A stretch of 64,000 nt of DNA, taken from positions 8,232,595 to 8,296,594 of the forward strand of contig OX387182.1 in NCBI GenBank assembly GCA_947561395.2, given 5' to 3'. The first letter of the stretch is position 1. Every line of letters begins with the position of its first letter. The position numbers were made by a program, and so were the translations under genes. Origin of the DNA: Buxus sempervirens. Its lineage: Eukaryota; Streptophyta; Magnoliopsida; Buxales; Buxaceae. The notes under the pieces are model-generated. The model ran no database searches. It had not been told where the DNA came from and was given only the letters and a program-made list of their open reading frames with translations. Shown one piece after another: positions 1 to 59,812 of the stretch.

Positions 1-1
1 G

Positions 2-9369: not shown

Positions 9370-9463
9370 TTTGGGAAATGTGCCTGGTCAAAAGGATGAT
9401 ATCCACTCAATTTTCAACTTGGTTTGATAAAAAATCAGTTTTTCAAAAAATCCTATTTTTGGG

Positions 9464-9507: not shown

Positions 9508-9665
9508 AACTCTTGGAGAGATGCCCCCTTAAAGTGAGGGCCTTTTGGCAAATCTCCACTCAAAAATGGTTTTCTACAGAAATTGAATTGAACCGAGCAA
9601 ATCATGCTCAAGGGAATGCAATTTGGGCTTGTCTACTCTTTGCAGCTCACTGCTTCGCAGCTCCC

Positions 9666-9680
9666 GCAAAGAGGGGCAGT
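9666..9680 (+). other. Polypurine tract of element 1
   Basis: GCAAAGAGGGGCAGT stands directly before the TG of the 3' LTR, the usual primer position for plus-strand DNA synthesis. The same tract precedes the 3' LTR of element 2. Confidence 0.8.
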
Positions 9681-26150: not shown

Positions 26151-26155
26151 ACAAC
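26151..26155 (+). repeat. Target-site duplication ACAAC, left
   Basis: ACAAC directly before the 5' LTR equals ACAAC at 48583-48587 directly after the 3' LTR, the 5-bp duplication expected for integrase-mediated insertion. Confidence 0.92.
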
Positions 26156-26245
26156 TGTAGACACCCCAAATTGCACAAACAATCATCAAAAATCATTATC
26201 TCCTGGAAAGCCAGCACAGAATTTGAAGAAAATGAACTTTTACCT

Positions 26246-26387
26246 GTATCCGGATACTCAATCCGGATACAAGTACTCCTTCATGTATCCGGATACTCAT
26301 ACCGGATACATGTGAGCCTTAGCGTATCCGGTATCATGTACCGGATACCTTAAGGCACTTTGTTATCCGGTCTGATGTACCGGATAC
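26246..26387 (+). promoter_or_regulatory. Four GTATCCGG-N9-CCGGATAC palindromes in U3 (5' LTR)
   Basis: Units at 26246-26270, 26285-26309, 26324-26348 and 26363-26387 are spaced regularly about every 39 bp, each 25 bp with a 9-bp spacer. Identical geometry occurs at the promoters of both antisense genes and in the leader. The inferred role is binding of a dimeric regulator or a methylation target, since each unit contains two CCGG. Confidence 0.75.
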
Positions 26388-26543
26388 CTTAAGTTTGCTC
26401 AAAATTAGGGTTTTCCGAGAGCTTTTCACTTTTACCATCATGTCCCTCATTAAATGAGGGGAAATCGCGGAAATAACCTTAGGGTTTAGGTTGGAGGGGT
26501 TCTAGACATTAATTTGTGTCTGCCAATGACCTTAGCCCTTGCC

Positions 26544-26551
26544 TATAAATA
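26544..26551 (+). promoter_or_regulatory. TATA box of the 5' LTR
   Basis: TATAAATA in the context TTGCCTATAAATAGGAGCC, conserved in all four Ogre-type LTRs of the window. Transcription should start about 30 bp downstream. Confidence 0.8.
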
Positions 26552-26658
26552 GGAGCCTCCTCCTTGAGCAAATGGCACACAACTCTTGTTTTGAATTCTC
26601 GCAAAGAAGAACTCCAAGAGAAGAAGGAAACCGCTGTGGAATCGCCTCCAGCACTCAG

Positions 26659-26660
26659 GT
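26659..26660 (+). other. Conserved splice donor in R/U5
   Basis: CACTCAG/GTAAGCC matches the donor consensus and recurs at 10184, 46812 and, on the minus strand, near 63597. A matching acceptor TTATTTGCAG ends at 31519, before the gag ATG. Splicing would remove the primer-binding site and the minisatellite leader. Confidence 0.5.
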
Positions 26661-28432
26661 AAGCCTCAACTTTTCTTTTTATTTTCTGTCTTTACATTCC
26701 TAGATCTAGATCTCTTCTTCTACCTTTCTGTAGTATAAAGCCTTGTTTGTATGTGTGGAAATCCTTCCCCGGCTCAAAGTATCTCAAGACTCCCCTAGCC
26801 GTAAAACGTGAAGGCGGATCTAGGAGAAACGAGACTGGGGATTGACCCTAGTGCTAGAACCTATGTAGCATAAGGCCTTTTTGATTGATTGTAAACCGTT
26901 CCATATTCAAAGTACCCTTGATTATCTTAAAGAGAACAGAGGGAAACGATAATGGAACGGAACCCTAGGCTATGCTAGAACCTATATTATTGAATCTATA
27001 TGCATGTGTATGGATCTTGCTAGGTTTTTTTCACTTTTGCACACATATCACTATTTTGGCGGGATAGGCTCATATTTGGGGTTTATTGCATTTATTGTGA
27101 TAAATCTCAAATAAATGGCCTCAATCAATTCTGGAATGCCTTTCGGATGATTTTGAAGTATTTGTGTTCATCTTACACGAATTTCATTTTTTATCAATTT
27201 TCGGATTTGGTTTTTACTCAAAAGTGGCTTAGCTTGACAGCACCTGTACCCCTACTTCGGACGTCCGTAACTTCATCGTCCGGATGAATTTTGGGGTGAT
27301 TCCAGAACCATGGGAAAGGTGAGGCTGTCTAGTTTATGTCCACCAAATTTCATGATTTTCTATCTAGCAGATTTTTGACACCTTTCTGTCGAAGTTGAGT
27401 GGACAGTTCAGGTCCAAGTACAGAACTTGTCACTTTGACGGACCGCCATGTGTTCGTTTTAAGTCCGATTCGAGTGATTTTTATTTCTGAGTACTCCTTT
27501 ATGAGTCTATTTTCAAATCCAGTTGGTTTCATAATTTTTGAACTCCATTTGAATTATTGGTAGCCGATTTACTCAGAACTGCTCATTTGCATTTTTCTGG
27601 GTAAATCTGTGATCTTCGGGGCCTGTTCGGGAGACCACCCAAGGCACGTCCGAAGGGATTTTTGTATGAGGCTAGTTTCTATGGAAATATGGCCATACAG
27701 ACTTCAATCACACTAAATTTCACGGATTTCTATGTAGTGGATTTTTCTAGACAATTTTCCAAAGTTGCCCACTTACCACTTTTAAAAATCCCCAACAGCA
27801 ACTTCAAAGGAGCATAACTCCTAGATTTTTCATCGGAATGAAGTGAAATTTTGCATGAGACTCTTGTTTACCCTAATCTTTCAAATGGATTTGGTTTGGG
27901 TCAATTTAGAATCGGATTTGAATGATTTCAAGGCAAATGGTATACTTTTTACCAAATTTTCCGAATTTGATTTAACTTGGTTTTGAGCAATTTGTGCTTT
28001 GATTTCCATCTTTTGAGATATTCCAGAAATGATATTGACATAAGAGAGGATCTAAAATCTATTTAGATCTTCATGTGAAAATATCATACATTAATCCTTT
28101 TTCAAGGTTTTCTATGATTTTTAGCAAGCTTTCTTACTTTATTTTTTGCATGAACATACACTTGGCAACCACTTCATGTGGATGAATGGGGGTGCCTAAC
28201 ACCTTCCCCCGTTCATAATCTAATCCCCTTACCCATCTCTGGATTTGATTTTCAAGTAGGATTATTTTTATCCTAGAATGTTTCTTTTGGCTATTTTTGC
28301 ATACTTTTGAATCTTTGGTGTCCATTCTCACCCCAAAATCATGAATGGTGGCAACTCTCCCAATTTTTGCGTTGAGCCCGTGTGTTGACGGAGGGACGAT
28401 CACTCCGGTGATTTTTTCCCATGTCTCACAAC

Positions 28433-28450
28433 TGGCGACTCTGCTGGGGA
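28433..28450 (+). other. Primer-binding site, tRNA-Arg type
   Basis: TGGCGACTCTGCTGGGGA lies 2 bp after the 5' LTR. It fits the CCA-tailed 3' end of a plant tRNA-Arg with one mismatch to the sequence I recall (GACTCCGCTGGGG type), as reported for Ogre elements. It is absent after the other LTRs, which confirms that they are 3' LTRs. Confidence 0.8.
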
Positions 28451-30260
28451 CTTGTGGATTTAAGCCATTTTGTGTATATTCATGCTTTTTCATCACTTTT
28501 GAATGCTTGCTATTTTGTTTGTTTTATTTGTGCATATTCTTGTATTTCAAATCAGATTGGGATGCTTTTGAATTTTATATGAATCAAGTCATGTATGTTT
28601 TACTTGATGTTGCCTAAAGGTTGATTTAGGAAAAGCCTATCTTGAAGCATGATTTGGTTATATTTTTGACAACATGCTCTAATTTGGATTTTGAATACCA
28701 TGGTTTGAACATGAGAATTAGAAACATGAAATCTAGGAGTTCAGAATTTTTGGGGTATTCAAACATGATTCCTATAAAGCATGCTTTTTTGTGCTTAAAA
28801 ATTTTTGTTATGCCATGCCTTTGATTTGGGGTATAGGGGGATTCAATTTAAGCATGAAAACCAAGAGCATGAGAAATCTGAAAATTTTAGTGCATATTTC
28901 TGGAGATTTCAAGCATATTTTACCTCATTGAAACACTTTGGTATCATGTCAAGTAGTGCTAAAATTTTAGGCTCCAATTTGGGATAGAAATGGTACACTT
29001 TGAGCATGAAATCTGGGATTTTAGGGAATGCTTTTGAGTTTCAAGCATGCTTACATGATTTAATGGTTGTTTGTACAAATGACATGTTTTGTATAACACT
29101 TTTTGGACATGTAATATTTTTGTGCATATTTGGTTGCTTTGGCTCTTGCTTGCTTGTAGTTAGCTTCATTATTTTTGTCATATGTACCTTGGCTTGAAAT
29201 TGAATGCATGGCTACGAAAAAGAGTGGCAAGGGGCTGGGACGTTGTGAATGTTACCACAATTTAAAATTGCACTTGAGCACTTGAAACAATTTGCACAGC
29301 CTACCCTTTACCTATTAGGAAGTTGAACCATGAATGTGTGTAGCTTGGCGCACCGAGGTCGTGACTTCGGAAAGCGAAAGTGAAAACATTTACCTTAGAA
29401 TTTGGGTCAATGATGTGATGACAATGGGATCTGTGATTCGATTCCGGGCATCACTAGACTTGAGTTCTAAGTTGCCAATTAAGCCAAAACCCAAAAACCA
29501 TACGCTTGAAGGTGGAGAAACACGTTTTTGGCTAAAAGCACACAATTGCGTTTGGGGAATTGGGTGTAAATGTGGGAAGGCCGTTTGCATGTTTTACAGG
29601 CCAAGGTATAATGTGAATACCATATTGAATGAAGGTAATACAAGGTGGCAAGGTAAAGCCATGTCCTTTTCTTAAATTTGCGGAATTTTGCAAGTGTGAT
29701 GTCCAAGCCCGATTTGGGGCAAGTTTTGAAGGTCAAATTAAGGTGAACATCAATCGGGAATGAAAAGAATCAAATCTGGTGAAAAAAATGAGTCAAAAAG
29801 GGCCATTTCGGCAATAACCGGCAACTCAGGCCGGTTAATAACAACCCTGCTCATATCCGGTATATATTTCCGGATAAAAAGGCATATGCGTGAATCCGGT
29901 TATGGTAACCGGATACAATAAGGCATATTATTATCCGGAATGTTATACCGGATACGTTCAAAAATGCAAAAATTGGCTTTTCAGCCCAAATTTTCAAAAT
30001 AAAATGCCTAAAACACTGTGGATAATCCTTAGGCACCCCGAAAAGAACATAAGAACTGTTCCCAAAAATACAAAAACAAAGAAAAAAAAACAAAAAAGAA
30101 TAAAATAAAATATTCTTTCAGGATTTAACCTAAGTTTGAAAATCAAAGAGGAAACCAAGGTGTCATATTTTTTGACACCAACTCAACTCAAACATGTGTC
30201 AATCAAACTCTGGAACTTGAAAACTGAGAAAATTCAGCAAATTTGAAGAAGAAAAAAAAA
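28451..30260 (+). other. Leader of element 2, non-coding part
   Basis: AT-rich, with no reading frame that I would call a gene. Ogre elements of other plants carry an extra ORF before gag; none is seen here. Bases 28640-29060 repeat loosely the words AAGCATGA, GAACATGAGAA and GAAATCT. A palindrome cluster lies at 29815-29955. Confidence 0.6.
29815..29955. promoter_or_regulatory. Palindrome cluster in the leader
   Basis: Three units of the (G/A)TATCCGG-N9-CCGGATA type lie at 29853-29877, 29892-29916 and 29931-29955. A variant with TAACCGG/CCGGTTA arms lies at 29815-29837. All four have a 9-bp spacer. No TATA box stands beside this cluster, so its promoter role is doubtful; it may be the trace of a lost promoter. 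Confidence 0.6.
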
Positions 30261-31345
30261 CCTTGGTTGGTTATTTTTATCAATCAAATCAAAATAAAAA
30301 AGATCAAAAAAATTGGGACCCTTGGAAGCCCTAGAATATTCCATGAAAACCTTGGTTGGTTATTTTTATCAATCAAATCAAAAAAGATCAAAAAAATTGG
30401 GACCCTTGGAAGCCCTAGAATATTCCATGAAAACCTTGGTTGGTTATTTTTATCAATCAAATCAAAATAAAAAAGATCAAAAAAATTGGGACCCTTGGAA
30501 GCCCTAGAATATTCCATGAAAACCTTGGTTGGTTATTTTTATCAATCAAATCAAAATAAAAAAGATCAAAAAAATTGGGACCCTTGGAAGCCCTAGAATA
30601 TTCCATGAAAACCTTGGTTGGTTATTTTTATCAATCAAATCAAAATAAAAAAGATCAAAAAAATTGGGACCCTTGGAAGCCCTAGAATATTCCATGAAAA
30701 CCTTGGTTGGTTATTTTTATCAATCAAATCAAAACATTTGTGGGATACTTGGATAGAGTAGTCCAAGACACCTTTGGTTGGTTATTTTATCAATCAAATC
30801 AAAACATTTGTGGGATACTTGGATAGAGTAGTCCAAGACACTTTTGGTTGATTATTTTTATCAATCAAATCAAAACATTTGTGGGATACTTGGATAGAGT
30901 AGTCCAAGACACCTTTGGTTGGTTATTTTTATCAATCAAATCAAAACATTTGTGGGATACTTGGATAAAATATTCCAAGACACCTTTGGTTGGTTATTTT
31001 TATCAATCAAATCAAAACATTTGTGGGATACTTGGATAGAGTAGTCCAAGACACCTTTGGTTGGTTATTTTTATCAATCAAATCAAAACATTTGTGGGAT
31101 ACTTGGATAGAGTAGTCCAAGACACCTTTGGTTGGTTATTTTTATCAATCAAATCAAAACATTTGTGGGATACTTGGAAGCCCTAGAATTTTCCAAGACA
31201 CCTTGGTTGGTTATTTTTATCAATCAAATAAAAAAAAATTAGGACCCTTGGAAGCCCTAGAATATTCCATAAAAACCTTGGTTGGTTATTTTTATCAATC
31301 AAATAAAAAATTTATGGGACCCTTGGAAGCCCTAGAATATTCCAA
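30261..31345 (+). repeat. Minisatellite in the leader, about 14 units of two types
   Basis: Every unit starts CCTTGGTTGG or CCTTTGGTTGG followed by TTATTTTTATCAATCAAAT. Five units of 84-89 bp (starts 30261, 30350, 30434, 30523, 30612) contain AAATTGGGACCCTTGGAAGC. About seven units of 70-71 bp (30701 to 31125) contain AACATTTGTGGGATACTTGG. The last units (31125, 31201, 31276) are hybrids. Open frames across it are artefacts of the repeat. Confidence 0.93.
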
Positions 31346-31461
31346 CACAAAATCAAAATAAAAAAAAAAAAAACAAACAAAAAAACAAAAAATCAAAAAA
31401 ATCTGGATTGGTGTTCACCTAACCTACTGGTTTACATATATAGGGGTGTGACTCAAGTTAA

Positions 31462-34400
31462 ATGGAAGCTAACATGTTTTATTCATTTTTTACTCAGGTA
31501 CATTTACACTTATTTGCAGTCATAGCTCCCGTGACCAGATCCAAAGCAAGAGCCATGAATACTGAAGAGAACCAAGCCCAAGCTACCATCCCCGCTCAGG
31601 ACTTTACTCAGCTGCAGGAGCAAGTGGCCGGTCTGGCCAAAATGCTGGGAGACTTACTGGCGGCTCAGGCCCAGCAGGCCCAAGCCCCGAACCAGGCATC
31701 TACTTCCCATCAGGCACCACCACCTCAGGCCTACATTCCGCCTCCGGTTCAGCCCATGCCTGAGCCCATTTCTGAACCAGTCCCTGAACCCATTCTGATC
31801 AGGGAAAATATGGCGGAGTCAGAGAAAGAGCTGGAGAAAGAAAAGGCCCGAGATGAGATGGAAAAGAAGATGCTGCTGAGGATAGAGAGGATTCAGGCAG
31901 AGCTGAAAGAGGTGAAGGGGGGAGGCAGCCATGCAGGCACCACCTTCGAAGACCTGTGCATGTACCCGGACGTCTGTCTACCGGCTAAGTTCAGGTGCCC
32001 GGATTTTGACAAGTTTGATGGCACGGGCTGCCCATTAAGCCATCTGAAACTATACTGCGGGGCCCTGTGCCAGTTTGGCCGGGACGATGGAATACTGATC
32101 CAGCTCTTCCAGAGGAGTCTAACCGGGTCAGCCCTTCGGTGGTTCGCTACAGTGGACCATGGAAGGATTAGGAGGTGGAAGGACCTAGCAGACGCTTTCT
32201 TGGACCAATACAAGTTCAACTCTGAGATCGTGCCGGACCGGTACGACATGATGAGGATGACCAAGGGCAAAGATGAGCCGGTACGGCAGTACGCCAAGAG
32301 ATGGAGAGAGGCCGCCTCCCAGGTCAGGCCACCTATGCAAGAGCCGGAGATGATCTCCACATTTATGGGCACACTGGGGCAGCCCTTCTACAACCATCTG
32401 GTGGGTCAGATCACCACCAACTTTGCAGCCCTGGTGCAGGTGGCTGACCGGATTGAAGAAGGGGTCAGGTCAGGACGGCTGATAGACTACTCTACTCTGA
32501 CTGGGCAGTCTGATTCCTCTGCCTCCATGGCCCAGAAGAAAGGGGCCGGATTTAAAAAGACGGGGGCCCGAAAAGAAGGAGAGGTGAACCTGGTCCAGGC
32601 TCCTCCAGCCAAGAAGCCACTGCACGTGAACATCTCGGCACCCCAACAGGCCCAGCAGGCCCAGCAGTCGTACCAGACCCCGCTGAATGTCAACTTCCCT
32701 CCCTCTGTGCCAGCTAACACAAGGAGGACTTTTTCTAAGGAGGAGCGGGATGCCTGGTTCACAGCAAGAAAGAACCGGGTTTTCACCCCTCTACCCATAT
32801 CTCTGTCCCAACTACTGCCAACCCTGCTAAAGGGTGAATACTTGACTCTGAAAGAGCCCAACCCGAATGCCACCAGGGGAAGAAATTTTGACACATCAGT
32901 CACCTGCGATTTCCACATGGGTTCACCAGGGCACTCTACAGATAACTGCTGGGTACTGAAGCATGCGGTCCAGGACCTGTTGGACCAGAAGGCTTTGGTC
33001 TTTAACACTGCTGCACCCGCCCCGTCCGGGAATGATATTGGGCAGAATCCTCTGCCTTACCACAATGGGGCAGGCCCATCCAACTCCATCACTGCCATAT
33101 CCACCACCAGAAGGGCCTTTGACCCATCACAGCTTATAGCACCAGTAGGGACCACTGTCCAGGTCCGTTTCTTCCAAGAAGAGGAAAAAGAGGAGATCAA
33201 CATGGTCTCCCAAAAAAATAATCTTGCTGCTGAGGACATAAGCTCCTCCTTAAACCGGGTCTCTTCTCTGATGGCCCAGATAAATACTGCAAGGCCTCCA
33301 TTGGTCTTCAATTGCAGTCCACCCACTTATTCCCCATCCAAGCCGTCTAAGGCTCCATTGGTCATCAATCTTGACCCCACCACTGCTTCCATCACTTCTT
33401 CTGTCCCCACCAAATCCAAACTTCAACCCTTGGTTGTAAATGTGCAGCCAGCCCAGACTATCCCTAAACCGGCCCATACATCCCGGTCCAAACTCCAGCC
33501 ACTAGTGGTTGACATCCCTAAATTAGCCTATTCAGAGGCCGCTGTACCATGGAACTACAGCGAGGGAATCACGGCTACGGTTCCAATGGTCAAGGACCAG
33601 AACCAGGAGGAGGTGAACCTCATGACGAGGTCGGGGAGATGTGCAGGGGGTGAAGAGAAAGAAAAAGAGACAGAAGTGGAGAAAGAAAAAAAAGAAAATG
33701 AAGAAAAAAGAAAACAGAAAGGAAAAAATAAAGTAGGAGAAGACACCCCCCAGGGTGCAGAAAATGAGGCAGCCGACCTCATAAAAATAATAAAAAAGAG
33801 TGAATTCAATCTTGTGGATCAGCTAAACAAGGTCCCGGCCCAGATTTCAATACTGGGCCTTTTGCTGAATTCTGAAAAGCATAGGGATGCATTGTTAAGG
33901 GTGCTACAGAGTGCACACGTATCCCAGACCATTGATCCAGACCAGCTTGGTAAAATGGTTGGTCAAATCTTGTCACATAATGTGATAAGTTTCTCAGAGG
34001 GTGAGATCAGCCCAGGTGGGTGTTATCATGTGGACCCTTTGCACATCACTGTGCTTTGTAAAGGCTGCATGGTTGCACGGGTTTTAATTGACAACGGGTC
34101 AGCGTTAAACGTTTGCCCGTTAATCACTTTTACCAAGCTGGGTCTGGACCAGTCAAGGATCAAGCAAAATGGGCGGATAGTAAGGGCTTTTGATAGCTCC
34201 AAGACCCACTCCCTAGGGGAGATTGAACTGCCGGTCACAATTGGGCCGAATATCTTTAACATCACATTTGAGGTGATGGATATACCCGCAGCCTTCAATC
34301 TGCTCCTAGGAAGGCCGTGGATACATTCGGCTAGGGCAATACCATCCACGCTCCACCAGAGGGTGAAATACATAAGAGGGCAAAGGGTGATAACAGTCCT

Positions 34401-35259
34401 AGCTGAAAACTTGGTACCGCCCATTGTGTCACCTGATGTACCATTAATCAATGTGGACTTGACTGTTGACAAGATTGCATTCCACTCATTTCAATTTGAG
34501 GCAGTAAATTACATACCTGGGGGGTGTGAGAAAAAGAAGGAAAAGGGGACCACTGCAGAAAAGATGGTCAAGAAAGTGATGGAAAAATACCACTTTCACC
34601 CAGGGAAAGGCCTGGGGATCAATCTGCAGGGGATGGTGGAGCCAATCATGGCTAAGAAACTAGTCCCAAAGGTAGGGTTGGGCTTCAAGCCCAGAGGTTG
34701 GAGGAGAATGAAACATGAAGAAGGGGAGAGCAGAAGCAGAGGAAAACTCCCGCATCTGAGGGTGAACTTCCCAAAACCCGCTTATATAATCCAAATTTCT
34801 CCTCCTATGGACCAATCAAAACCTCCCTACTACAATGTCAACCCATTTCAAAAGCCTTCTGTTTCGGCCCTACAACCCTATAACCCATCTCCAATACTGG
34901 GAGCAGTGGATGGGCCTGGACCACAGCCCGAGCAGCAGGTGGACTTTTCTGAGGATGTTGGTGCATTCTTCGCCATGACTGAAGGCGAAAAGACAGGGGC
35001 AGACATGGAACTGCCATTTATTGACTGGGCCGCAGTAAAGGCTCCAGACAAGGTCATTTCTGAACTGGGCCCCGTAGCAGAAAAGGGCAGTACCCACCCG
35101 GTGATGATGGCATCGGATGCTGGGCTTGAGGAGCAGGCTTTCCCTATTTCCCCTGCTCCCCAAAATTTTGTACTGAACAATTGGAAGGAAACTCCCCTTA
35201 CCTTTGAAGCAGCGTTTGTTCGGCAAACTAACGCGGCTTCCAAAAAAAAACTCCAATAG
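31462..35259 (+). CDS. gag-pro: Gag-protease polyprotein of element 2
   Basis: The open frame begins at ATG 31462. A splice acceptor TTTGCAG at 31519 and the better-placed ATG at 31555 (MNTEENQ) suggest the real start is 31555. From 31462: Gln/Pro-rich head, coiled coil near 115-155, retrotransposon gag domain about 165-340, Cys/His knuckle (CDFH...GH...C) near 490. A Lys/Glu-rich linker is near 730-755, the protease motif DNGSALNV near 877, and a G-patch-like segment about 1036-1062. The frame ends after an A9 run at 35241-35249, one A more than in element 1. Pol lies in another frame. Confidence 0.92.
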   Translation: MEANMFYSFFTQVHLHLFAVIAPVTRSKARAMNTEENQAQATIPAQDFTQLQEQVAGLAKMLGDLLAAQAQQAQAPNQASTSHQAPPPQAYIPPPVQPMPEPISEPVPEPILIRENMAESEKELEKEKARDEMEKKMLLRIERIQAELKEVKGGGSHAGTTFEDLCMYPDVCLPAKFRCPDFDKFDGTGCPLSHLKLYCGALCQFGRDDGILIQLFQRSLTGSALRWFATVDHGRIRRWKDLADAFLDQYKFNSEIVPDRYDMMRMTKGKDEPVRQYAKRWREAASQVRPPMQEPEMISTFMGTLGQPFYNHLVGQITTNFAALVQVADRIEEGVRSGRLIDYSTLTGQSDSSASMAQKKGAGFKKTGARKEGEVNLVQAPPAKKPLHVNISAPQQAQQAQQSYQTPLNVNFPPSVPANTRRTFSKEERDAWFTARKNRVFTPLPISLSQLLPTLLKGEYLTLKEPNPNATRGRNFDTSVTCDFHMGSPGHSTDNCWVLKHAVQDLLDQKALVFNTAAPAPSGNDIGQNPLPYHNGAGPSNSITAISTTRRAFDPSQLIAPVGTTVQVRFFQEEEKEEINMVSQKNNLAAEDISSSLNRVSSLMAQINTARPPLVFNCSPPTYSPSKPSKAPLVINLDPTTASITSSVPTKSKLQPLVVNVQPAQTIPKPAHTSRSKLQPLVVDIPKLAYSEAAVPWNYSEGITATVPMVKDQNQEEVNLMTRSGRCAGGEEKEKETEVEKEKKENEEKRKQKGKNKVGEDTPQGAENEAADLIKIIKKSEFNLVDQLNKVPAQISILGLLLNSEKHRDALLRVLQSAHVSQTIDPDQLGKMVGQILSHNVISFSEGEISPGGCYHVDPLHITVLCKGCMVARVLIDNGSALNVCPLITFTKLGLDQSRIKQNGRIVRAFDSSKTHSLGEIELPVTIGPNIFNITFEVMDIPAAFNLLLGRPWIHSARAIPSTLHQRVKYIRGQRVITVLAENLVPPIVSPDVPLINVDLTVDKIAFHSFQFEAVNYIPGGCEKKKEKGTTAEKMVKKVMEKYHFHPGKGLGINLQGMVEPIMAKKLVPKVGLGFKPRGWRRMKHEEGESRSRGKLPHLRVNFPKPAYIIQISPPMDQSKPPYYNVNPFQKPSVSALQPYNPSPILGAVDGPGPQPEQQVDFSEDVGAFFAMTEGEKTGADMELPFIDWAAVKAPDKVISELGPVAEKGSTHPVMMASDAGLEEQAFPISPAPQNFVLNNWKETPLTFEAAFVRQTNAASKKKLQ

Positions 35260-35420
35260 TGGAATGCCATTTCCCTGAAGGTTCTAATGGGCCTTCGTCT
35301 TCAGGGGAATTATGTTTAGAAGGCCCACAAAAAACCCAAAAGGATTTTTCTATTTTTTCTAGGAAATTTAATTTTTTCAAAAAGGTCTAAACCACTTATG
35401 AACCATATAATCAGACCGAA

Positions 35421-38400
35421 TTGGACCAGGTTGAATATGACTTCGACCTTGAGCTCGACTTTGATCTCATGGGGGTCGAAGAAGAGACCGAGGTCGAAGA
35501 AGAAGACGTTCCAAAAGAAATTGAATACCAATTGGAACGTCATGAAAAGGGGGTCCAACCTAATATTGAGGAGACCATATCCATAAATCTTGGGACCGAA
35601 GATGACCCAAAAATTGTGAAAATCGGGTCATGCTTGTCTGATGTGCAGAAAAATGAAATGTCACGGTTCTTGGCAGATTACAAGGATGTGTTTGCTTGGT
35701 CATATCGGGACATGCCGGGGTTGGACACGGACATGGTGGTGCATAAGTTGCCGATTTTACTAGGGGTTAAGCCGATTAAGCAGAAGCTGAGAAGATTGAA
35801 ACCTGAGTGGACTTTGAAGGTCAAGGATGAAGTGGTCAAACAGTTCCAAGCCGGATTTTTGGCAGTCTCTACGTACCCTGAGTGGCTCGCAAACATAGTG
35901 CCGGTACCAAAGAAGGACGGGAAGGTCCGAATGTGCGTGGACTATAGAGACTTGAACAGGGCAAGCCCAAAGGACGATTTTCCGCTTCCACACATCGACA
36001 TTCTGGTCGATAATACTGCGGTACATAGCCTGTTTTCCTTCATGGATGGTTTCTCAGGATATAACCAGATCAAGATGGCTAAGGAGGATCAAGAGAAAAC
36101 AGCATTTATCACACCTTGGGGCACATTTCACTATACAGTCATGCCATTTGGGCTTAAGAACGCTGGGGCAACATACCAACGGGCCATGACTGCACTATTT
36201 CATGACATGATCCACAAGGAGATGGAGGTCTACGTGGATGATATGATTGCCAAATCATGCAAAGAGGAGGACCACTTGATCAATCTGAAGAAAGTGTTTG
36301 ATCGGCTTAGGAAGTACAGTCTACGGCTTAACCTGGCTAAGTGCGTCTTTGGGGCTACATCAGGAAAGTTGCTTGGGTTTATAGTGAGCCGAAGAGGAAT
36401 TGAAATTGACCCGGCTAAAGCCAAGGCCATAATTGAAATGCCAGCACCCAGAACCGAGAAGGAGGTTAGGGGCTTTCTTGGAAGGATTCAATACATAAGC
36501 CGGTTCATAGCACAGCTCACTGCTATCTGTGAACCAATTTTCAAACTTCTAAGGAAGGATAACCCTACGGTCTGGAATAAGGACTGCCAGCAGGCATTTG
36601 ACACAATAAAGAGGTATTTGCTGAACCCACCTGTGCTAGTGCCACCAACTCCAGGAAGACCACTGATCCTGTACTTGTCAGTGTTGGAAACGTCGATGGG
36701 ATGTGTCTTGAGACAGCATGATGAGACTGGTAGAAAAGAAAGGGCAATTTACTATCTGAGTAAAAAATTCACGGAATATGAAGCCAAATACACACCATTG
36801 GAAAAGACTTGCTGTGCTCTAGTGTGGGCCACTCAGAGGCTAAGGCATTATTTCCTTAGTCACTCCACACTATTGATATCCCGATGGACCCGCTGAAGTA
36901 TTTATTTGAGAAACCGGCACTGACTGGCAGGACGGCAAAGTGGCAACTACTACTGTCCGAGTTTGACCTCACATACATCACCCAGAAGGCGATCAAAGGT
37001 CAAGCCATAGCTGATCACCTGGCTGCACATCCTCTGCCAGAATATCAACCCTTGAAGACCAACTTCCCAGATGAGGCAATTCTGTACACTGAAGAGGAGG
37101 ACAGTGAGAGTTCTTGGCAGATGTTCTTCGATGGGGCAGCCAATATGAATGGGAACGGAATAGGGGCAGTCTTGGTTAAACCAGATGGTTCACATATCCC
37201 AATTGCAGTAAAGCTGAGATTCCAGTGCACCAATAACATAGCAGAATATGAAGCATGCATAATTGGATTGCAAGCAGCCATGGATCATGGAGTAGAGGAA
37301 CTTGACGTATACGGGGATTCGAGTCTTATCATCTTCCAAACAACTGGTGAGTGGAAAACCAAGGATCACAAATTGATCCCCTATCACCAGTATTTGGAAG
37401 AAATGAGCACAAATTTCACTCGAATTTCCTTCAACTATATGCCAAGGGCCAAGAATCAGTTTGCAGATGCTCTAGCAACCTTGGCTTCCATGGTCAGCAT
37501 ACCAGAAGGAGTAGACATCAGACCGCTGGAAATTGAGGTCCAAGATGAACCGGCTTACTGTCTCGTTCTAGAGGGAGCACCAGAAGAAGAAGCACCATGG
37601 TTTCAGGATATCAAGAACTTCTTGAATAATCGGAGTTTGCCAGAAAATGCCACTGCTACTGAGAAGAGGACAATACAGAGATTGGCTGGTCAATTTCTGC
37701 TAAGTGGTGGACATGTGTACAAGAGGTCACATAACGACATTCTGCTAAGATGTGTTGCCAAGGCTGAATCGGAAAGGCTGATTGAGACTGTACATGGACG
37801 AGTCTGTGGGCCCCATATGAGTGGGCACATGCGGGCTAAGAAGATCCTGAGGCTGGGATACTACTGGACAACCATGGAGCATGATTGCTGTGTACATGTC
37901 AGGAGGTGCCACCAATGCCAGATATATGCAGATAATAAGCATGCACCCCCTGGTGAGCTGCACAACATGACATCACCCTGGCCCTTCTCTATGTGGGGCA
38001 TAGATGTCATCGGCATGATCTCCCCTAAGGCATCGAATGGGCACAGATTCATCTTGGTGGCAATTGATTATTTCACTAAGTGGGTGGAAGCAGCATCATA
38101 TGCAAATATCACAAGCAACCATCTGATCAAATTTTTGAAGCACAATATCATTTGTCGCTATGGACTGCCAAGTGCCATAGTATCAGACAATGCTTCAAAC
38201 ATTAAGAACAAGGACATGAAGAAAATGTGTGAGCAATTTCAAATCACCCATCATAAGTCAGCTCCGTACAGGCCAAAGATGAATGGGGCAGTGGAAGCAG
38301 CAAACAAGAATATAAAGAAAATCATTCAAAAGATGGTAGTGAGTTACAAAGATTGGCATGAAATGCTACCACTTGCTCTACATGCCTACAGAACTTCGAT

Positions 38401-38845
38401 CCGAACTTCAACTGGGGCAACCCCGTATTCCCTAGTCTATGGGATGGAAGCAGTCTTGCCTGTGGAAGTAGAGATCCCAGCACTCCGAGTGCTCATGGAA
38501 GCAGAACTAGAAGAAGCTGAATGGATACAGTCAAGACATGATCAACTTAACCTGTTAGAAGAAAAGCGGTTGAAAGCACTTTGCCATGGACAGTTGTACC
38601 AGAAGAGAATGGCCCGGGCTTACAATAAGAAAGTGAGGCCCAGAACTTTCCAAGAAGGAAATTTAGTGCTAAGGAAAATCTTACCATTTTTGGAAGACCC
38701 TCGTGGTAAGTTCAAGCCCAATTGGGAAGGCCCATATGTCGTCAAGAAAGTCCTGTCAGGGGGTGCACTCATCTTAGCAGAAATGAATGGGTCAGATTTT
38801 CCTGAGCCCATTAACTCTGATGCAGTAAAAAGGTATTTTCCTTGA
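35421..38845 (+). pseudogene. pol: Pol of element 2, broken by a 1-nt deletion
   Basis: Colinear with the intact pol of element 1: reverse transcriptase with YVDD near 36235, two RNase H domains, HHCC and D-D-E integrase. Near 36883 one G is missing relative to element 1 (CCCGATGG against CCCGGATGG at 4771-4778). This stops the first part at 36894-36896, inside the first RNase H; the rest stays open from 36884 to 38845. Upstream, TAA at 35388-35390 blocks the pol frame in the gag-pol joint, where element 1 has CAC. Otherwise it is well preserved, as expected for a recent insertion. Confidence 0.93.
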
Positions 38846-39782
38846 GTGAATATTTCTAGGAAATGATCCGAGGCCATTTTTCTTTATTTCCTTTAAAAAT
38901 TTTAAACCCTAGTCTAGCCAAGTTGAGCCGGTTCGTTTCTTTGATAAACCCAAACCGGATTTACAGTCTTAAATTGGGGCAAAATCAATTGGGGCGAAAG
39001 TGAGGAAAGAAAAAGAAAAAGAGAGGAAAAGCAATGGAAATGGCAAATGAAAGCCAAGTGTGAAAAAGAGATGCAAAAAATGCAATTCGGGGAAAAATGG
39101 ATAAATTCATCATGACTGTAAATCCGGTTGACCTATTTCCACACTTGAAAATTTTTGGGCCTTTAATACCCTTTCTTTCATAAACTGAGCCTAGCCTTTA
39201 TTTCGTCCTATTTTTAAGCCCTCGGTGATCTTAGTTGGTTCATTCAAATATCAGAGTAAGATGGGTGATGACGGAATTCAGAAGCCGGCCCTAGTGAAAA
39301 CCGTAACTGGCGCTAGGGGCAATATTGGCAAAAGAAAAAAAATCAGAAAAATGAAAGAAAATCAGAGGTTGAGTTGATCATGGGGATCTGTGATTGAAGC
39401 AAAATCGGCATGAGCAGAATGGGGCAGTTTTGGCAGTTGGGGATGACTCTAAAGGTCCTCAGATGGACGGTTCTGATCCCTCAGTATTTTCTGGACTACC
39501 CTTTTCATTATTTAACCTGGGTCTAATTCCTTTAATTATAGGTGATTAAGTGCATGGACCAAATTTCAAAAAAAAAATACAAAAAAAAAATATAAAAAGG
39601 AAAAATTATACTTTGGCCAGTGATGAGAAATCAAATACTTTTCATAAAACCTTTGTTTTTACAAGCATCTGAGCATTCTGAGGCCAATAATATAAAAACT
39701 TTATTTTGAATTAAATCCTTTGTATTTCCACTATTGGAGTTCAATTTTGTACAAAGGTATGAAAAATGTGCAGGAAATAAAG
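38846..39782 (+). other. Non-coding spacer between pol and antisense gene 1
   Basis: Matches 6738-7682 of element 1. Sense pol and antisense gene 1 converge here, so both transcripts must end in or overlap this stretch. No gene is seen. Confidence 0.6.
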
Positions 39783-41482
39783 CTAATCTCCTAGCCGCTC
39801 CTCAAGCTCCCGAATCCGAGCTGCCTGAACTGCAATGACTCCTGAAGCCCCCTCTGCAGCGGGATCACTCAGGAAGGAAATGACCTCATCTGAAAGGGCC
39901 TGCCTGATCCGCATACTCCTAAGGCTGGCCAAAGTATCCTGGTACTTCTGCCGGATCATACGGACCTCAAAGCGACGGGCCTGCCTCTGCTCCTCCAGCT
40001 TCTCTTCCACGGCAGTACGGCGTGAGATCTGCTCCTCAAGCTGCCTCTCCAGATAAGCACCCTGTATCCTGAGCTCCTGGGCCTCCCGCACCCATATTTG
40101 CTGAAGCCGCTTATGAGAAGCCCGCTCAGACTGTAGAATGTCCTCATAGGTGGGAGCCAAGACTACAGGAGAATCTTCGGGTACTGGGGCCTGAGTCTGT
40201 ATCTGTTCCTTGATCCAGAAGAGATAATCCTTTACATGGGCTTCTGAGAAGACTGGACCATGCATAAAGCGTACATAGGACCACTCCTTCATCAGCCAGG
40301 CATTCAGCTTCATAGAAAGGGGCCCAAGACGATCCTCATATCCACATGGGATGATAATCCCCTGGGTCGCACGGAACTGACGAAGGACCCGCAGAGGAAG
40401 ATACAGCACTGCATGCTTCAGGCCCGCCAGAATCAGAAAGTTGCGGTCTCGGAAGCTAATCACTGTCTCCGCATTAGGCTGATAAGTACCAGGCCATCTC
40501 ACCTGGTCATCCTGAAGCGAGCCCAAGAAAGTGAACCAGCCCTGTTTGCCCCCTGGAATATCGGGGCACCCCCTGTTGCTCATCAAGAGAGGGACTTTCA
40601 GACTAGGGAAGAAGTGTCGGTTGATCTCTTCAATCTGGCTCAAATGATCAAGTAGCCAAAGCTGCAAAGGAGGAGAGATATGTCAGCACACTGTAAAGAA
40701 AAAAAAAAGCAAAAAAGGCAAAAAGAAAGCCAAAAAAAGCAAGGAAAAAAAAATAAAAAAAAAAACTTTTTTACCTGCAGGATCTGAGCACATGCTAGGA
40801 AGCGTTTCGACTTCCTATTGTAGCAGTCGGTTAAGGCCTGATATATCCCAGCTAAAATCATAGGGGCCAACCTCTCCCGCTCCCTAACCTGGCATATCAC
40901 GGAAATCAAGGCCAAGTCCACCTCGTCATCCTCCCGTGGGAAAAGCAACTGGTTGACCACTATCAGGGTCAACGCATTGAATCGGGCCTCCTTATCTTCT
41001 CCCCTCAAAAGCTTCTCAGTCAAAAAAGCCTTAGATAGGGTCAAAAGGGTGTCAGAATCCCCCAAGTCCTTCTTCCCTATGCCCAAAAAAGTAGAAGCTT
41101 CCTTCTTGTAATTGGGCCTAAGAGGTGGATTCACCACCTTCTCATCAAACCTCAGGCCCAGGATAGTTTCCACCTCCTCAATGGTTGGGGTCATCTCATG
41201 GGTCCCAAAGCGGAACAAGTTGAGATCAGGAACCCAATGACCAATCATGGCCTCTATAATCTCCCACTTGAAGGGAACCTTGGGAATGAGCAGGGTATGG
41301 CCTAGGTTGGTAGTACCCCATCTCCTCTCCTCATCTAGGGTCATAGAGTTAACCCACCTTGTGTAAAAGGAATCCACAGGGTTGTACCTAGTGAGATTTG
41401 GGGGTTTTGATCTAAAAGGCTGTTTTGCAGGGGAGGCAGTGTGGACAGACAATAACGGGGCAGAAGATGATCCGGATTCCAT
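39783..41482 (-). CDS. Antisense gene 1: plant-mobile-domain protein, two exons, 528 aa
   Basis: Exon 1 is 40775-41482 and exon 2 is 39783-40661, joined in phase 0 (donor CTGCAG/GTAAAA, acceptor TTTGCAG). The joined frame is open. The start MESGSSS at 41482 is preferred because the TATA box at 41593-41599 puts transcription start near 41568, below the earlier ATG at 41575. The region around HEMTPTIEEVETILGL and the following 150 residues match the aminotransferase-like plant mobile domain (PMD). The C-terminal third is a coiled coil. PMD proteins occur in plant nuclei and inside transposons; their biochemical role is unknown. Its last exon survives in element 1. Confidence 0.82.
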
Positions 41483-41592
41483 TGGATTTGACGGGAGCAA
41501 GCTAGAACTCAAGAGGAGGAAGAAAAAGGCGAAAAAGGGGTTTTCTAAACTCAAAAACTCGTAAAAAATGCTCAAATCCCGAGTCTGGTTGC

Positions 41593-41752
41593 ATTTATAG
41601 CATCTTTTAACGTATCCGGTAACTCAGACCGGATACAAAGGCTTTAGTAAGATCCGGATAAGTATACCGGATACAGAGGCTTCCATGAATATCCGGTATG
41701 ACATACCGGATACAAAGACCAGTCAATGTATCCGGTATGTCAGACCGGATAC
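41593..41752 (-). promoter_or_regulatory. Promoter of antisense gene 1: TATA box plus four palindromes
   Basis: The minus strand reads CTATAAATGC (TATAAAT at 41599-41593). Upstream stand palindromes at 41612-41636, 41650-41674, 41690-41714 and 41728-41752, each with a 9-bp spacer between TATCCGG- and CCGGATA-type arms. The nearest lies only about 13 bp from the TATA box. Confidence 0.72.
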
Positions 41753-41965
41753 CGAGAAAAAATGCAAAAAAAGAGCTAAGGATGAAAAATCCGAATTTTT
41801 TACCTGTTTTACCTGCTTACATGTCATAATTGCATAAAATTGAGAACAAAAGATATGCAAGACATGATAGAATGAATAAAAAGTTTTTTTTCATATATAT
41901 CTGGAAGATTTGTACAGGGATGATGATATAAAAATGAAAAAATCCTAATCTACTCCTATGCAGGA
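41753..41965. other. Spacer between the two antisense genes
   Basis: About 210 bp of AT-rich DNA holding the 3' end of antisense gene 2 and the far upstream part of the gene 1 promoter. No separate feature is seen. Confidence 0.5.
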
Positions 41966-44637
41966 TCATCCCCCGCGTCCTCGGCCGCGCCCACCTCTAC
42001 GGCCTCGCCCCCAAAGTCCTCGGCCTCTAGAGTAGGCAAGGATCCGCTCGGCTGCATGGCGAGGATGCCGACCTACCACCTGCTGAAGATGATACTCCAA
42101 GCAATAATCCTCGAGATCTGGGGGAGGAGCAGGAGTAGAATCTGGGGAAGAAGCCTCGGGCTCAGCAGCAACCGGCCCAACTGGGCCCTCATCCAAAGCC
42201 TCCTCTGCTCCCGCAGCTCCAGAAGGCCCAGCATCAGCAACAGAGGGGCCGGGATCAGAAGTAGCTGAGTCCACAGAAAAGGGGAAAATCAGAAGACTCA
42301 AATATAAGGAAGAATAAAAGAGGAGAATTAAAAGAAGATCATACCAGGAATGTCGGCAGAAGGAGCAGGAGGATCCGGTTCGTCAAGACCAGCCGCTGGG
42401 GCATCCTCGGGATCAGCAGCCCGAGCCGGAGATGGGTCGGGAATCAGGAAATCATGCTCAAAGAAAGCGTCCTGATCATGGACCGGGCCCTGCACAAGTC
42501 AAACAAGCATATCAGAATAGCAGAAACAGGAAAATAATGAAAGAAATGAAAATATGAGAAGGCCAGCTACCTGTCTAGCCTGGAGCTCAGCAACCAAGGC
42601 CTCCAGCTCCCTGATCCGGGCATCCCGCTGGGCCACGACCGCATCGTGCTCCGCGATCATATCATCGATCGCGGCCCGCTGGCTCTCGAACTGGTCCCGA
42701 ATGGAGTTCAGCTCGTGTACCTGCCAACAAGAAAGGAAGCATGGTCAGAAATGCATAAGAAAGGAAAATAGGATAAAAACAGGAAGAATACAAGGCTTAC
42801 CGTGTCCTCATGGATCCGGATACGGATCCCGCCAATCTCTGTCACCCCGGCACGAGTGGGTCGATCCATCAAGCACCCAATGGACACCCTCTGGAACCAC
42901 TCGTCATAATCTCCGGCTGCTGTGAGCCCCTCGGCATCCAGGAAGTGATCAAACTGATCCACATCGAAGCCAGGAAGGAGAGTATCGGGACCCACAGCAG
43001 GAGGAGGGACGGGGATGCAAAGTGCGCCAGTGTGCTGATAGTACAGGCGCTCTCCCAAGTACATCACCCTACCAAGCCTCCCAAGGAAGCACTGGTAGGG
43101 CTGACGTCGGAGATCTCTCTCAAAAGCATCCTGTACTGCCATCTCACGGGCAACTCCGACATCCACGTCATCTGGACGGGATAGAATGAGCTGCAAAGAA
43201 GCAAAGTGGTCAGATACAGTTAAGATACAGGAAAGAAAATAGAAGAAAAAGAATAAGGCTTACATCAGATCGGCGGGCACGGTCTAAGTGCACCCGGGCA
43301 GTGCGAGGCTGGCTCCTATCAGCATCCCGGACCAAGGCCGACCATCGCAAAGCCACTGGAAAATCTGCGACCTCAGGTACCGGGGAGGGTCGGAAGAAGG
43401 TCATATAGGTGTACATGAACACCTAGCAAAAGAAAAATCAGTCAAAAAAAGAAATAGCCGAAGGAATTAAACCAGACAGATGAATGCAATACCTGTAGAA
43501 TCTTCCAGAAGAACCGGCTGCTGACTCCATCACCTCTCGGAGATGCTAAGCCTCGAACCGCTCGGCACAGCCCGGCCAAGATGGTCCCATAGATCAGCCG
43601 ACCCCATGCTAGCTGGCGGGTCTGATGGAAATCTCGCAAGGCATCCAAAAAGAGCGGACTGACACCAGTCGTATCCTCTGGGAAGAAGCAGCTCCCCAAC
43701 ATCAGCAGGAATACATGTCGGAAGATCGGCGCAAAGGCTGCATCCTCCCCAGAAACGGTCTCGTGCCTCCTCTCAAAATGGCGAGCCAGACTCTCCCGCA
43801 GCCAGCTAATGGAGAGCCGGCCACTCCTCCCATCCCAGGCAGTAGGTGGCAGGGCCTGATACCCCAGAAGGAGGCCAATATCCTCCGCAGAAGGCCGCTC
43901 CAAGATGATGGTCCGCCCAGTCAATGGAATACCGGTGATCATCACAAAATCCGAGGGGCGGATCCCCAGCTCCACGTCCGGCAAATGAAATGACTGCGTC
44001 TCAGGGAAATATCTCTCCATCATGGCAAAAATAAGCGGACGGTCGGCTCTGAACGATGGAATGCTGAGGAAGTGATCCAGGTGGCACCTCCCAAACTCCC
44101 GCCTGAGTGCCGGGGAAAGCGACCGAGCTAACTCACTGAATCTCCCCCAGCTACCTCGCAAGTGGGAAGAGTAGTAGGGAAGCGGCACATCGGCCCTGAT
44201 GCACATAGAGGGGTGGCTATCCAAGCCATGGAGGAGCTCTGTATCATGCACAGAAGCCCTCAACTCCTCAGAGACCCCTGCCAGAGCTACAGCAACCCCC
44301 TCTGGAGCCATATCTCTGGCTCTGCCTCGGCCTCTACCACGGCCTCTCTCGCCCTCAGGGGCCTGATCCTGAACTCTGCCTCTGCCTCTGCCTCGACCTC
44401 GAGCCGGTGCAACCGCGGGCTAAAATTCAAGAGAAAGATGTGAAGTTTGTGTGAAAGAAGAGTAGAATGAAGAAAGAAAGGAAATTTTTGAAAGCCTACC
44501 TCAGCAGAGCTCTCTCGGGAGACATCTAGCGGCTCCGACAGGGTGGCGCTGGAACTCGCCTCTGTCCGAGCCCGCGAACTGGAGGGCTGATCAGCAGGGT
44601 CAGCCTCCTCTCTAACTCGGGAACGACTCCTAGCCAT
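41966..44637 (-). CDS. Antisense gene 2: second plant-mobile-domain-like protein, seven coding exons, 735 aa
   Basis: Coding exons: 44500-44637, 43493-44419, 43264-43422, 42801-43190, 42571-42720, 42345-42489, 41966-42264. All junctions are GT-AG, and the total of 2208 nt stays in frame. The product has an Arg/Ser N-terminus and an Arg-Gly run near residues 53-80. A plant-mobile-domain-like core covers about 85-460 (SFHLPDVELGIRPSDFVMITG, then WKILQ at the exon end). A coiled coil is encoded by the 42571-42720 exon, followed by an acidic Pro/Ala linker and a C-terminal RGG-type tail. The intron after ...ILQ sits where antisense gene 1 also has one, which suggests common descent. RGG tails often bind RNA, which is only an inference here. 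Confidence 0.75.
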
Positions 44638-45640
44638 CTACAACAGGGAAGTGTTTTATAAATTTCAGTTCAAATCTATCTGGAATCCTACTTTGCTCAG
44701 TTCAAGTTGAAAAGAAAATTTTTTTTTGATTGTATAGGTTCCAACTCTGGCTCATCAGGAATCTTATATGATTTTTCAGGAATTGTGTTTTAGTTCAAAG
44801 TTTAGAAAATATTCCTATATTATTCTAAAACATTTTGTTTAGAAGGCCTAATATCTGATAATTTACTGCAGGATCGTTACAGTTGTGCAAAAACAAATGG
44901 TCTGAGCTAAATCAAGGAGTGCAAGAACCAACCACAGAATGGTCCTGGCAGTTAGAGCACAACATCAACACCGGGCGGATTGAGAAAAGTAAATCCCAGC
45001 ATATCAAGACAAAAGAAGTAGCAGCAAGGCAGTCCTAAGTTTTGGACACTATCAAGTCAAGGCTTGCACAAGCCACAGTCACATGGGCAGCTCCAAAAAA
45101 AATGGCAATTGAAAGTCAAGACAAATTTTGAAAAAAATCACATAGCATGAATTCTATCAATAGTTATATGGGAAATACAAAGTCATGCTGGGCACAATGC
45201 AGTGAATTAGCAACGACAAAAATCCAATCCACAATAATCCAACATGATCAAAGCAAAAACATGCTTGAATTCGATGGAATCATGCAAAAGGAAAAAAAAA
45301 AAGAGAAAAAGCATGCTTGACTAGGTCGGATTGCACTTACTAGTTGAGCAGCAAAGAAGGGAATCTGGTTGATGAAGAATCAGGCACAAGCAATCACCGA
45401 AGATCAACACCCCCACACTGAGTTGATAAAGTCGCTGGAAATCGAAAATTTTTGAAGAAAGCCGAGTTAGGGCTCAGTCGCGGCAAGGAACAGAAGTCGC
45501 CGGAGTTACAGGTTGTCGCCGGCAGCAAAAGGAGCACCAGAGTCGTCGGAGATCGCCGGAGAAGAAGTAGGATCGTCGGTTGTCGAAGAAGCAAAGCCTG
45601 GAGCCGGTCTGAGTAATCGGAGCAAGAAGAAAAGAAGAGG
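44638..45640 (-). other. 5' untranslated exon and intron of antisense gene 2
   Basis: A CT-rich leader runs from about 45640 to 45341 and ends in a strong donor (CAACTA/GTAAGT, GT at 45340-45339). The acceptor TTGTAG at 44643-44638 stands immediately before the ATG at 44637. A 5' UTR intron of about 700 bp is a normal plant gene design. The 111-residue frame at 45394-45729 starts upstream of the predicted transcription start and is not called. Confidence 0.55.
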
Positions 45641-45661
45641 AAAAGTCGCGGTCGCGCGCGA

Positions 45662-45740
45662 CTTATAAAACCTGCGGGATCCGGATACTCAGGCCGGATA
45701 CCCGCAGATCCTTGATTATCCGGATACACTTACCGGATAC
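45662..45740 (-). promoter_or_regulatory. Promoter of antisense gene 2: TATA-like box plus two palindromes
   Basis: The minus strand reads TTTTATAAGTCGC (TATA-like at 45668-45662). Palindromes at 45677-45701 and 45716-45740 stand just upstream, both with 9-bp spacers. This is the same layout as at antisense gene 1. Confidence 0.68.
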
Positions 45741-48582: not shown

Positions 48583-48587
48583 ACAAC
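48583..48587 (+). repeat. Target-site duplication ACAAC, right
   Basis: Matches 26151-26155. Reading across without the element gives CTTGTATGG-ACAACACGAATGG-ATTCC, against CTTGTATGG-ATTCC in the paralogous block at 58466-58479. Confidence 0.92.
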
Positions 48588-58859: not shown

Positions 58860-59812
58860 TTATAGTTATAATAAATGCTATAGATATATAATGTGTAATG
58901 CAGTGTTTAGAAACCCGACAGGCCTGGTAACTAGGAAGCTTATCTATCCAAGTAATTATGGGTATTAGGTTGAGTTACCAGCCTTGTTATTATATAAATA
59001 AAGTAATATTTTAAGAAATAATTGAGAAATATATTATAATTTAATGAGTTTTTATCTAAAACCTGGTTAATTGACTAGTTTAGATTTTGGGATTTATTCT
59101 ATGGAACTCTCAACTTACACTGTCCAAGTAACTCGGGCGGGTATTCTGATTTATTCACTGGTTTTTAAACAATGGTCTAATGTCAATCAATAGAGATCAT
59201 GTAAAAGCAATATTCAAAACTTAGGAGAAACATCACAAGACTATCAAAGGATCCTGGCATGTTTGGATAGGATTCAACAAAGCAGATGATAAAGGTGGAT
59301 GATGAAATATTTTTGGGCAAAATCGGGCCAATGGAGAAGTTGCTAAACATGGTATGGAAGCTAAGGCCCATATATGGACTAATTTTAAAGGGAGCCATTC
59401 CTCTGAGTTACGTTTAGTCAATTTCAATCGTCAGTGTGATCATCGTTTTGGGAAATATAAGATTTTTCATTGATTTTACTGGCTTTCAAAGGATTCAAAA
59501 TTCCTCCAACAGTTGAAGAAAATATGTAACGTGTCAGGTTGATAATAATTCCAGAACTCACGGTTTAGCAAATTGCGTGCCCGGCTAGCCGGCGATTCTC
59601 CAACACCGAAGTCACTCTGTAAAGGATGAATGTCGCCATCCCAAAGACCCAAGTAGGGACGAAATGGTGGAAAAAGTCGTAGATGAAATGGACTTTACAG
59701 GGTCAGCTTTGTAATCACCATACGGCAACGCTGTGTTTGACTGACTTTTTTCTGCTGAAAAATCTTAGTTGTCCAAATTAAATATTGAAATTGGCCGGTA
59801 CACGTTCTCTGA

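Follow-up and report, generated by a model that had tools for sequence, protein, structure and literature searches.

In a 64-kb window of the Buxus sempervirens contig OX387182.1 (the whole stretch of DNA analysed here), a giant long terminal repeat (LTR) retrotransposon, element 2, carries many copies of the palindrome GTATCCGG-N9-CCGGATAC, with 8+8-bp arms, a 9-bp spacer and half-sites 17 bp apart. The palindromes lie in phased arrays in the U3 of both LTRs, in the leader and upstream of two antisense genes for plant mobile domain (PMD) proteins. We propose that they are the sites of a symmetric DNA-binding protein, most likely the element's own antisense PMD protein or proteins acting as a VANC-like self-recognition factor, and we put the probability of this reading at about one half.

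Palindrome arrays in element 2

Exact 8+8-bp palindromes occur 12 times in the window at spacer 9 and 0 times at every other spacer from 0 to 30. Allowing one mismatch raises the count to 20 at spacer 9 and to 1 over all other spacers. Similarly, TCCGG-N9-CCGGA was observed 22 times, against a mean of 0.025 and a maximum of 1 in 200 simulated sequences of 64 kb with the base-to-base frequencies of the window, in which the mean number of exact sites was 0. Counting the LTR once, the first-pass annotation of this DNA had listed 13 sites for element 2, and every one of them is present in its place; the four sites of element 1 (9771-9888) and the one or more of the third LTR (63975) were recovered as well. 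The variant reported near 29815 also exists. It starts at 29814 and forms a complete fourth leader site with spacer 9, ATAACCGG-N9-CCGGTTAA.

In the layout of a long copy, the arrays hold 4 (U3), 4 (leader), 4 (antisense 1), 2 (antisense 2) and 4 (3' U3) palindromes, and the gene-spanned 52% of the length of element 2 holds 0 of the 18 sites. Neighbouring sites keep a 39-bp phase. Among 281 arrayed sites of the window and the fetched copies, with both LTRs of each copy counted, 191 of 204 neighbouring pairs step by 39 bp from start to start and ten by 38 bp; steps of 36, 40 and 77 bp occur once each, the 77-bp step adjoining a probably spurious match. This step is absent from the first-pass annotation. 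Separately, a weaker match, GTATCCTG-N9-CCGGATCA, with 3-4 mismatches (three at 39934), lies in exon 2 of antisense gene 1 (window 39934-39958 and 7840-7864) and recurs in long and short copies; this is coding sequence, and the match is perhaps a coincidence.

The clusters had been described as touching the TATA boxes of the antisense genes. Instead, gaps of 11 bp (antisense 1) and 7 bp (antisense 2) separate them from TATA-like boxes, and the LTR array lies 155 bp upstream of its own box. The antisense-2 box, CTTATAAA, reads CTTAAGTAAA in 3 of the 6 copies compared. Additionally, the 300 bp flanking the leader array on each side contain no TATAWA. The proposed role as a promoter mark is too narrow, given the leader array and the distance of the LTR array from its box.

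Genome-wide distribution and other copies

Genome-wide scans covered 676.5 Mb. Exact spacer-9 sites number 20,444, against 0 for the reversed pattern and a chance expectation of about 0.2 by our own arithmetic. Exact arms at spacers 0 to 8 give 36 matches together. Spacers 10 to 40 give 1,570 (control 2), and among the matches listed each spacer is 35, 22 or 32, because neighbouring phased sites produce these values when the half-site is the 12-mer GTATCCGGATAC. With 7-bp half-sites, 28,399 matches occur at spacer 9 (control 5). Spacing hardly varies genome-wide, and free spacing in other family members, named earlier as counter-evidence, was not found. Half-sites independent of the spacer were considered and are rejected by these counts.

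The first 50 exact sites listed, which span the first 4.5 Mb of one contig, comprise 39 in the family U3, 10 in the antisense-1 promoter, 1 in the leader and 0 elsewhere. This is the VANC-type pattern of a short motif dense in the non-coding parts of its own family and rare elsewhere, with the restriction judged on these first 50 sites. At C1:8464557-8571861, about 168-275 kb to the right of the window, eight family LTR arrays, all facing the same way, recur about every 15.32 kb, which would fit tandem amplification of a short copy; one unit of this series was read in part (L032 and L046). A diverged cluster at C1:5920009-5921196, whose sites step by 39 and 103 bp and have unusual spacers, is perhaps an older relative.

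A piecewise reading of eleven additional long copies, scanned at spacer 9, gave 44 of 44 sites at antisense 1, 21 of 22 at antisense 2 and 42 of 44 in the leader by the script criteria. Each of the 11 copies has sites in its antisense promoters, so the absence from other copies that had also been named as counter-evidence was not seen. Site number is nearly constant across the 12 long copies, and VANC-type tandem expansion and contraction is therefore not observed. Five short copies of about 15-16 kb (L028/L029; L030; L031; L032/L046, one unit of a tandem array; and element 1 with L033) retain the U3 array and exon 2 of antisense gene 1, whereas the stretches read of these five copies showed no exon 1 of gene 1, no gene 2 and neither of the antisense arrays. 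Where their leader was read, it holds four sites in L029, four in L033 and three in L046. Furthermore, an older LTR (L027), 80-85% identical to that of element 2, still carries four sites at the 9-bp spacing and the 39-bp step, of which three contain a single mismatch.

A dimer of a host transcription factor might instead bind the sites, which the element would have multiplied in its promoters, as LTRs often do, with the PMD proteins doing something else. Any dimeric factor fits the fixed spacing and TCCGG half-sites, two arrays lie 7-11 bp from the TATA-like boxes of genes, and copies without intact antisense genes retain sites. However, such a factor should also have sites in host genes, yet the first 50 exact sites, from those 4.5 Mb, all lie in the family, and no TATA-like box is found within 300 bp of the leader array. 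We regard this explanation, the main rival, as rather unlikely.

Conservation of the sites

Across 15 LTRs, the CCGG cores show no differences, whereas outer arm bases differ at 0.033, spacers at 0.176 and linkers at 0.158; the copies were selected via exact LTR sites, which biases these values toward conserved LTR arrays. In the rest of the LTR, CpGs differ at 0.077 and other bases at 0.053, and eight random CpGs from elsewhere in the LTR were equally conserved in 10 of 5000 draws. The U3 background is lower, at 0.034 for non-CpG bases outside the array and 0.041 for the three other CpGs. Against this lower background, the cores still exceed their surroundings in conservation, the outer arms do not, and the spacers and linkers clearly fall below them. 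Over all array types in six copies, the differences were 0.018 for CCGG, 0.044 for the outer arm, 0.134 for the spacer and 0.179 for the linker, in a comparison that excludes the array flanks (not gap-aligned).

These values bear on two alternatives. The arrays could have arisen from a single tandem duplication, copied from region to region, and persist as neutral relics; the common 39-bp unit and the AAGGC recurring in some linkers would fit this. Yet linkers and spacers differ by 16-18% where the CCGG cores are invariant among 15 LTRs, and lengths remain fixed, which makes neutral relics the least credible explanation here. Alternatively, the sites might be a target of host silencing, recognised by a host PMD complex of the MAIN/MAIL1/PP7L type or through CG/CHG methylation at CCGG, which contains CG and CHG sites. 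Methylated CCGG is expected to decay, and a selected element should lose such sites, yet the cores are its best-conserved bases. According to passages of PMC7156037, Arabidopsis PMD proteins silence transposons, and the genes dependent on them share a promoter motif; however, the example of that motif given in a passage of PMC9899485, CATGCAGTTT, is unrelated in sequence. Recognition by host silencing appears improbable.

The spacer had been described as fixed at 9 bp and variable in sequence. Its length is fixed and its sequence does vary, but not freely, and two reverse complements dominate LTR site 1. In particular, ATACTCAAT occupies this spacer in 7 of 18 copies, its exact reverse complement ATTGAGTAT in another 7 and other sequences in 4, and copies with either orientation share an identical flank before the site. 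Counted by single arrays, the two orientations occur in 12 and 14 of 34. At LTR site 3, 28 of 33 arrays carry the spacer TACCATGTA; its reverse complement occurs in 2, which are the two LTRs of a single copy. This pattern suggests that whatever factor recognises the site is insensitive to spacer orientation, as a symmetric dimer would be.

In chloroplast DNA, hairpin loops are known to undergo small inversions between their inverted arms, and the flips suggest that the arms sometimes fold or recombine. DNA or RNA hairpins with an 8-bp stem and a 9-nt loop, a target also considered in the first-pass annotation, would draw further on the perfect arms in 120 of the 281 sites. However, the outermost arm pair is complementary in 55% of the 281 sites and broken in 45%, and two-sided complementary changes amount to one class of 13 sites, the first leader site, and one other single site. 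Because the outermost pair is often broken and two-sided changes are rare, stem pairing is not what is conserved, and complementarity is not kept through two-sided changes. Moreover, a hairpin needs complementarity, not the identical 7 bases at every site, and the predicted antisense transcripts would not include the sites in their own promoters, which lie upstream. Hairpins are accordingly disfavoured, and we consider them very improbable. The dimeric-protein reading put forward at first is strengthened by the near-invariant TCCGG half-sites, the fixed spacer, the tolerance of spacer sequence and orientation, and the near lack of compensatory stem change.

Antisense PMD proteins

Antisense gene 1 matches the Pfam families DUF7745 (1.7e-25) and PMD (5.5e-20), and gene 2 matches PMD (4.9e-18). 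Their PF10536 scores, 72.3 and 65.8 bits, lie above the curated cut-off of 34.9. Gal4-type zinc-cluster regulators bind comparable sites, with inverted CGG-Nx-CCG half-sites at fixed spacing; in contrast, neither antisense protein of element 2 has a Zn2Cys6 zinc-cluster domain at E up to 0.05.

The ratios of nonsynonymous to synonymous substitution (dN/dS) are 0.081 for exon 1 of gene 1 (11 long copies, omitting L016, whose best match covers <80% of the exon) and 0.165 for exon 2 (12 copies), and 0.063 and 0.091 for exons 2 and 4 of gene 2 (12 long copies each). Internal stops occur in 2 of 11 and 4 of 12 copies for exons 1 and 2 of gene 1, and in 3 of 12 and 1 of 12 for exons 2 and 4 of gene 2. 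The exon-2 value of gene 1 says little by itself on selection on the whole protein, because four short copies without exon 1 (one frame-shifted) give 0.154. Collectively, the substitution ratios show purifying selection on the antisense PMD genes.

With gene 1 alone as the query, 2 distant homologues were found, and with residues 20-345 alone none; a four-sequence profile found 64, and those with an organism name are all from Solanaceae. A search of PDB sequences with gene 1 gave no match. The predicted structure of a Solanaceae PMD relative aligns with DNA-bound VANC21, whereas VANC21 was not listed in a fold search with a truncated model of gene 1 exon 1. No significant match emerged from a search against viral structures, and a pattern scan of viral contigs returned 8 stretches. 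A crude heptad scan detected a heptad-like stretch near residue 560 of gene 2 and none in gene 1, so that it lends no support to coiled-coil dimerisation of gene 1. PMD membership and the modelled fold resemblance of the Solanaceae relative to VANC21 provide indirect support for the antisense proteins as palindrome binders.

PMD genes also occur elsewhere in the genome. A PF10536 scan gave 8,447 candidates and 117 scored matches, and six matches in four loci were read: L047 and L048, with a pair each, and L049 and L051, which belong to one family, with L050 adjoining L049. CCGG-N9-CCGG is absent from all stretches read of these loci. L047 has a small ATTCCAACTATA cluster. L049 and L051 represent a second gypsy family with an antisense PMD frame of 970-985 amino acids (aa). 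It has two U3 palindromes, GGGTCGTGCA-N2/4/6-TGCACGACCC, with an unfixed spacer (L049 6668-6817 and L051 7077-7209), and, downstream, a tandem array in which a short motif that includes AATCGTCC is repeated 25-30 times (L050 175-1077 and L051 8535-9306). Because this second PMD-bearing gypsy family is without such an array in the stretches read, PMD proteins do not generally imply fixed palindromes. The other PMD loci neither support nor refute co-divergence of motif and protein. Several further PMD frames are paired about 3.4 kb apart (e.g. C12:20508698 and C12:20512122), apparently another PMD-bearing repeat family.

Structure and lineage of element 2

The two LTRs of element 2 are 99.69% identical over 2277 columns, with 4 mismatches and 1 gap opening, and the element is flanked by a 5-bp target duplication, ACAAC (26151-26155 and 48583-48587, read from the flanks). 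A second RNase H lies between the first RNase H and the integrase. According to passages of PMC6317226, this arrangement marks both Ogre and Retand, and PMD frames occur in 57% of Ogre elements. Retand typically has TRP28 frames, and the predicted PMD frames of element 2 favour the Ogre lineage (Tat clade). Further Ogre characters are a primer site complementary to tRNA-Arg and an intron between protease and reverse transcriptase; in element 2, a putative primer site follows the 5' LTR. The coordinates are listed in Table 1. The leader also contains a tandem repeat of roughly 71-bp period (30255-31345, from shifted self-matches), free of palindrome sites. Outside element 2, two G-type lectin/S-locus-like frames (B_lectin, S_locus_glycop, PAN) at 50231-51745 and 59769-61214 are probably host genes or pseudogenes.

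Table 1. Features of the window and their coordinates.
Feature	Position	Strand	Details
Element 1, short copy	1-11955
U3 array, element 1 3' LTR	9771-9912		4 palindromes at 9771, 9810, 9849, 9888; step 39
Element 2	26156-48582		giant LTR retrotransposon
5' LTR, element 2	26156-28430	+	starts with TGTAGACACC; TATA-like box CTATAAATA at 26543
U3 array, 5' LTR	26246-26387		4 palindromes at 26246, 26285, 26324, 26363; spacer 9, step 39
Leader array	29814-29955		4 palindromes at 29814, 29853, 29892, 29931; spacer 9, step 39
gag frame	31462-35259	+	G-patch domain
Reverse transcriptase and RNase H frame	35391-36896	+	RT_RNaseH
Second RNase H, then integrase	36860-38845	+	RVT_3, residues 90-208; rve, 375-472; different frame
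Antisense gene 1	39783-41482	-	exons 41482-40775 and 40661-39783 (splice sites by eye); 528 aa; DUF7745 and PMD
Antisense-1 promoter array	41612-41752		4 palindromes at 41612, 41650, 41689, 41728; spacer 9, steps 38/39/39
Antisense gene 2	41966-44637	-	seven exons predicted by eye; PMD protein, Arg/Gly-rich ends
Antisense-2 promoter array	45677-45740		2 palindromes at 45677, 45716; spacer 9, step 39
3' LTR, element 2	46311-48582	+
U3 array, 3' LTR	46401-46539		4 palindromes at 46401, 46437, 46476, 46515; steps 36/39/39
Site of a third, inverted LTR	63975-63999		LTR cut by window end

Proposed mechanism and known systems

In the mechanism that we favour, a symmetric protein would contact two TATCCGG half-sites 17 bp apart (TATCCGG-N9-CCGGATA) within 39-bp-phased arrays of two or four sites. 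The binder would be a dimer of one or both antisense PMD proteins, acting in the VANC manner, and either gene 1 or gene 2 could supply it. Such a dimer would mark the non-coding intervals of family copies, namely U3, leader and both antisense promoters, and might promote or de-silence transcription there. At the promoters of its own two genes, binding may additionally provide feedback, so that the sign of the effect could be activation, de-silencing or feedback repression. Copies stripped of the antisense genes, which retain LTR and leader sites, could be served in trans.

The closest parallel is VANC21 and VANC6 of the Arabidopsis VANDAL elements, where an element-encoded protein likewise goes with a short motif dense in the non-coding regions of its own family; for VANC21, the predicted structure of the Solanaceae PMD relative adds a likeness in fold. 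However, VANDALs are DNA transposons, whereas the LTRs, gag-pol and 5-bp target duplication identify element 2 as an LTR retrotransposon. VANDAL motifs, as described in passages of PMC5735166, lie in one orientation in tandem repeats that expand and contract; in contrast, element 2 has its motif as an inverted repeat, fixed in spacer and phase and nearly constant in number. The proteins of element 2 also differ from VANC in falling into the Pfam family PMD, and passages of the two papers found to name both VANDAL and plant mobile domain state no homology between the two.

Among Ty3/gypsy elements of the Tat clade, Ogre shares with element 2 the second RNase H and an antisense PMD frame between pol and the 3' LTR, whereas element 2 has two PMD genes, and the passages of PMC6317226 describe no target motif or regulatory array. 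Similarly, Retand carries antisense genes downstream of pol, for which DNA binding and regulation have been proposed, but they encode TRP28 instead of PMD, and passages of PMC11963269 report no shared palindrome. Arabidopsis MAIN/MAIL1/PP7L and the 'DOWN' motif also tie PMD proteins to transcription and a promoter motif; they differ in being host genes that silence transposons and in the motif, the binding of which is not demonstrated in the passages of PMC7156037 and PMC9899485. That transposons use their own PMD proteins against silencing has already been suggested, in a passage of PMC8616336. No target motif for a transposon PMD protein is reported in the literature searched, which was largely at title and abstract level with subscription journals mostly outside.

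A broader reading, which we offer tentatively and at somewhat less than even odds, would unite plant Ty3/gypsy PMD and VANDAL VANC proteins in one superfamily of sequence-specific DNA readers. The antisense PMD protein would then bind CGG-N9-CCG phased at 39 bp in non-coding intervals and counteract the silencing of family copies, which would give this LTR retrotransposon a complete self-recognition circuit, and MAIN and MAIL1 would be domesticated DNA-binding anti-silencers.

The palindrome is a concrete candidate target: its half-site, spacer of 9 and phase of 39 make sharp predictions that can be tested by gel shift, and a structural connection to a DNA-bound anti-silencing protein is possible. 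Should the proposal hold, a VANC-like self-recognition system would be present in a giant and abundant plant retrotransposon.

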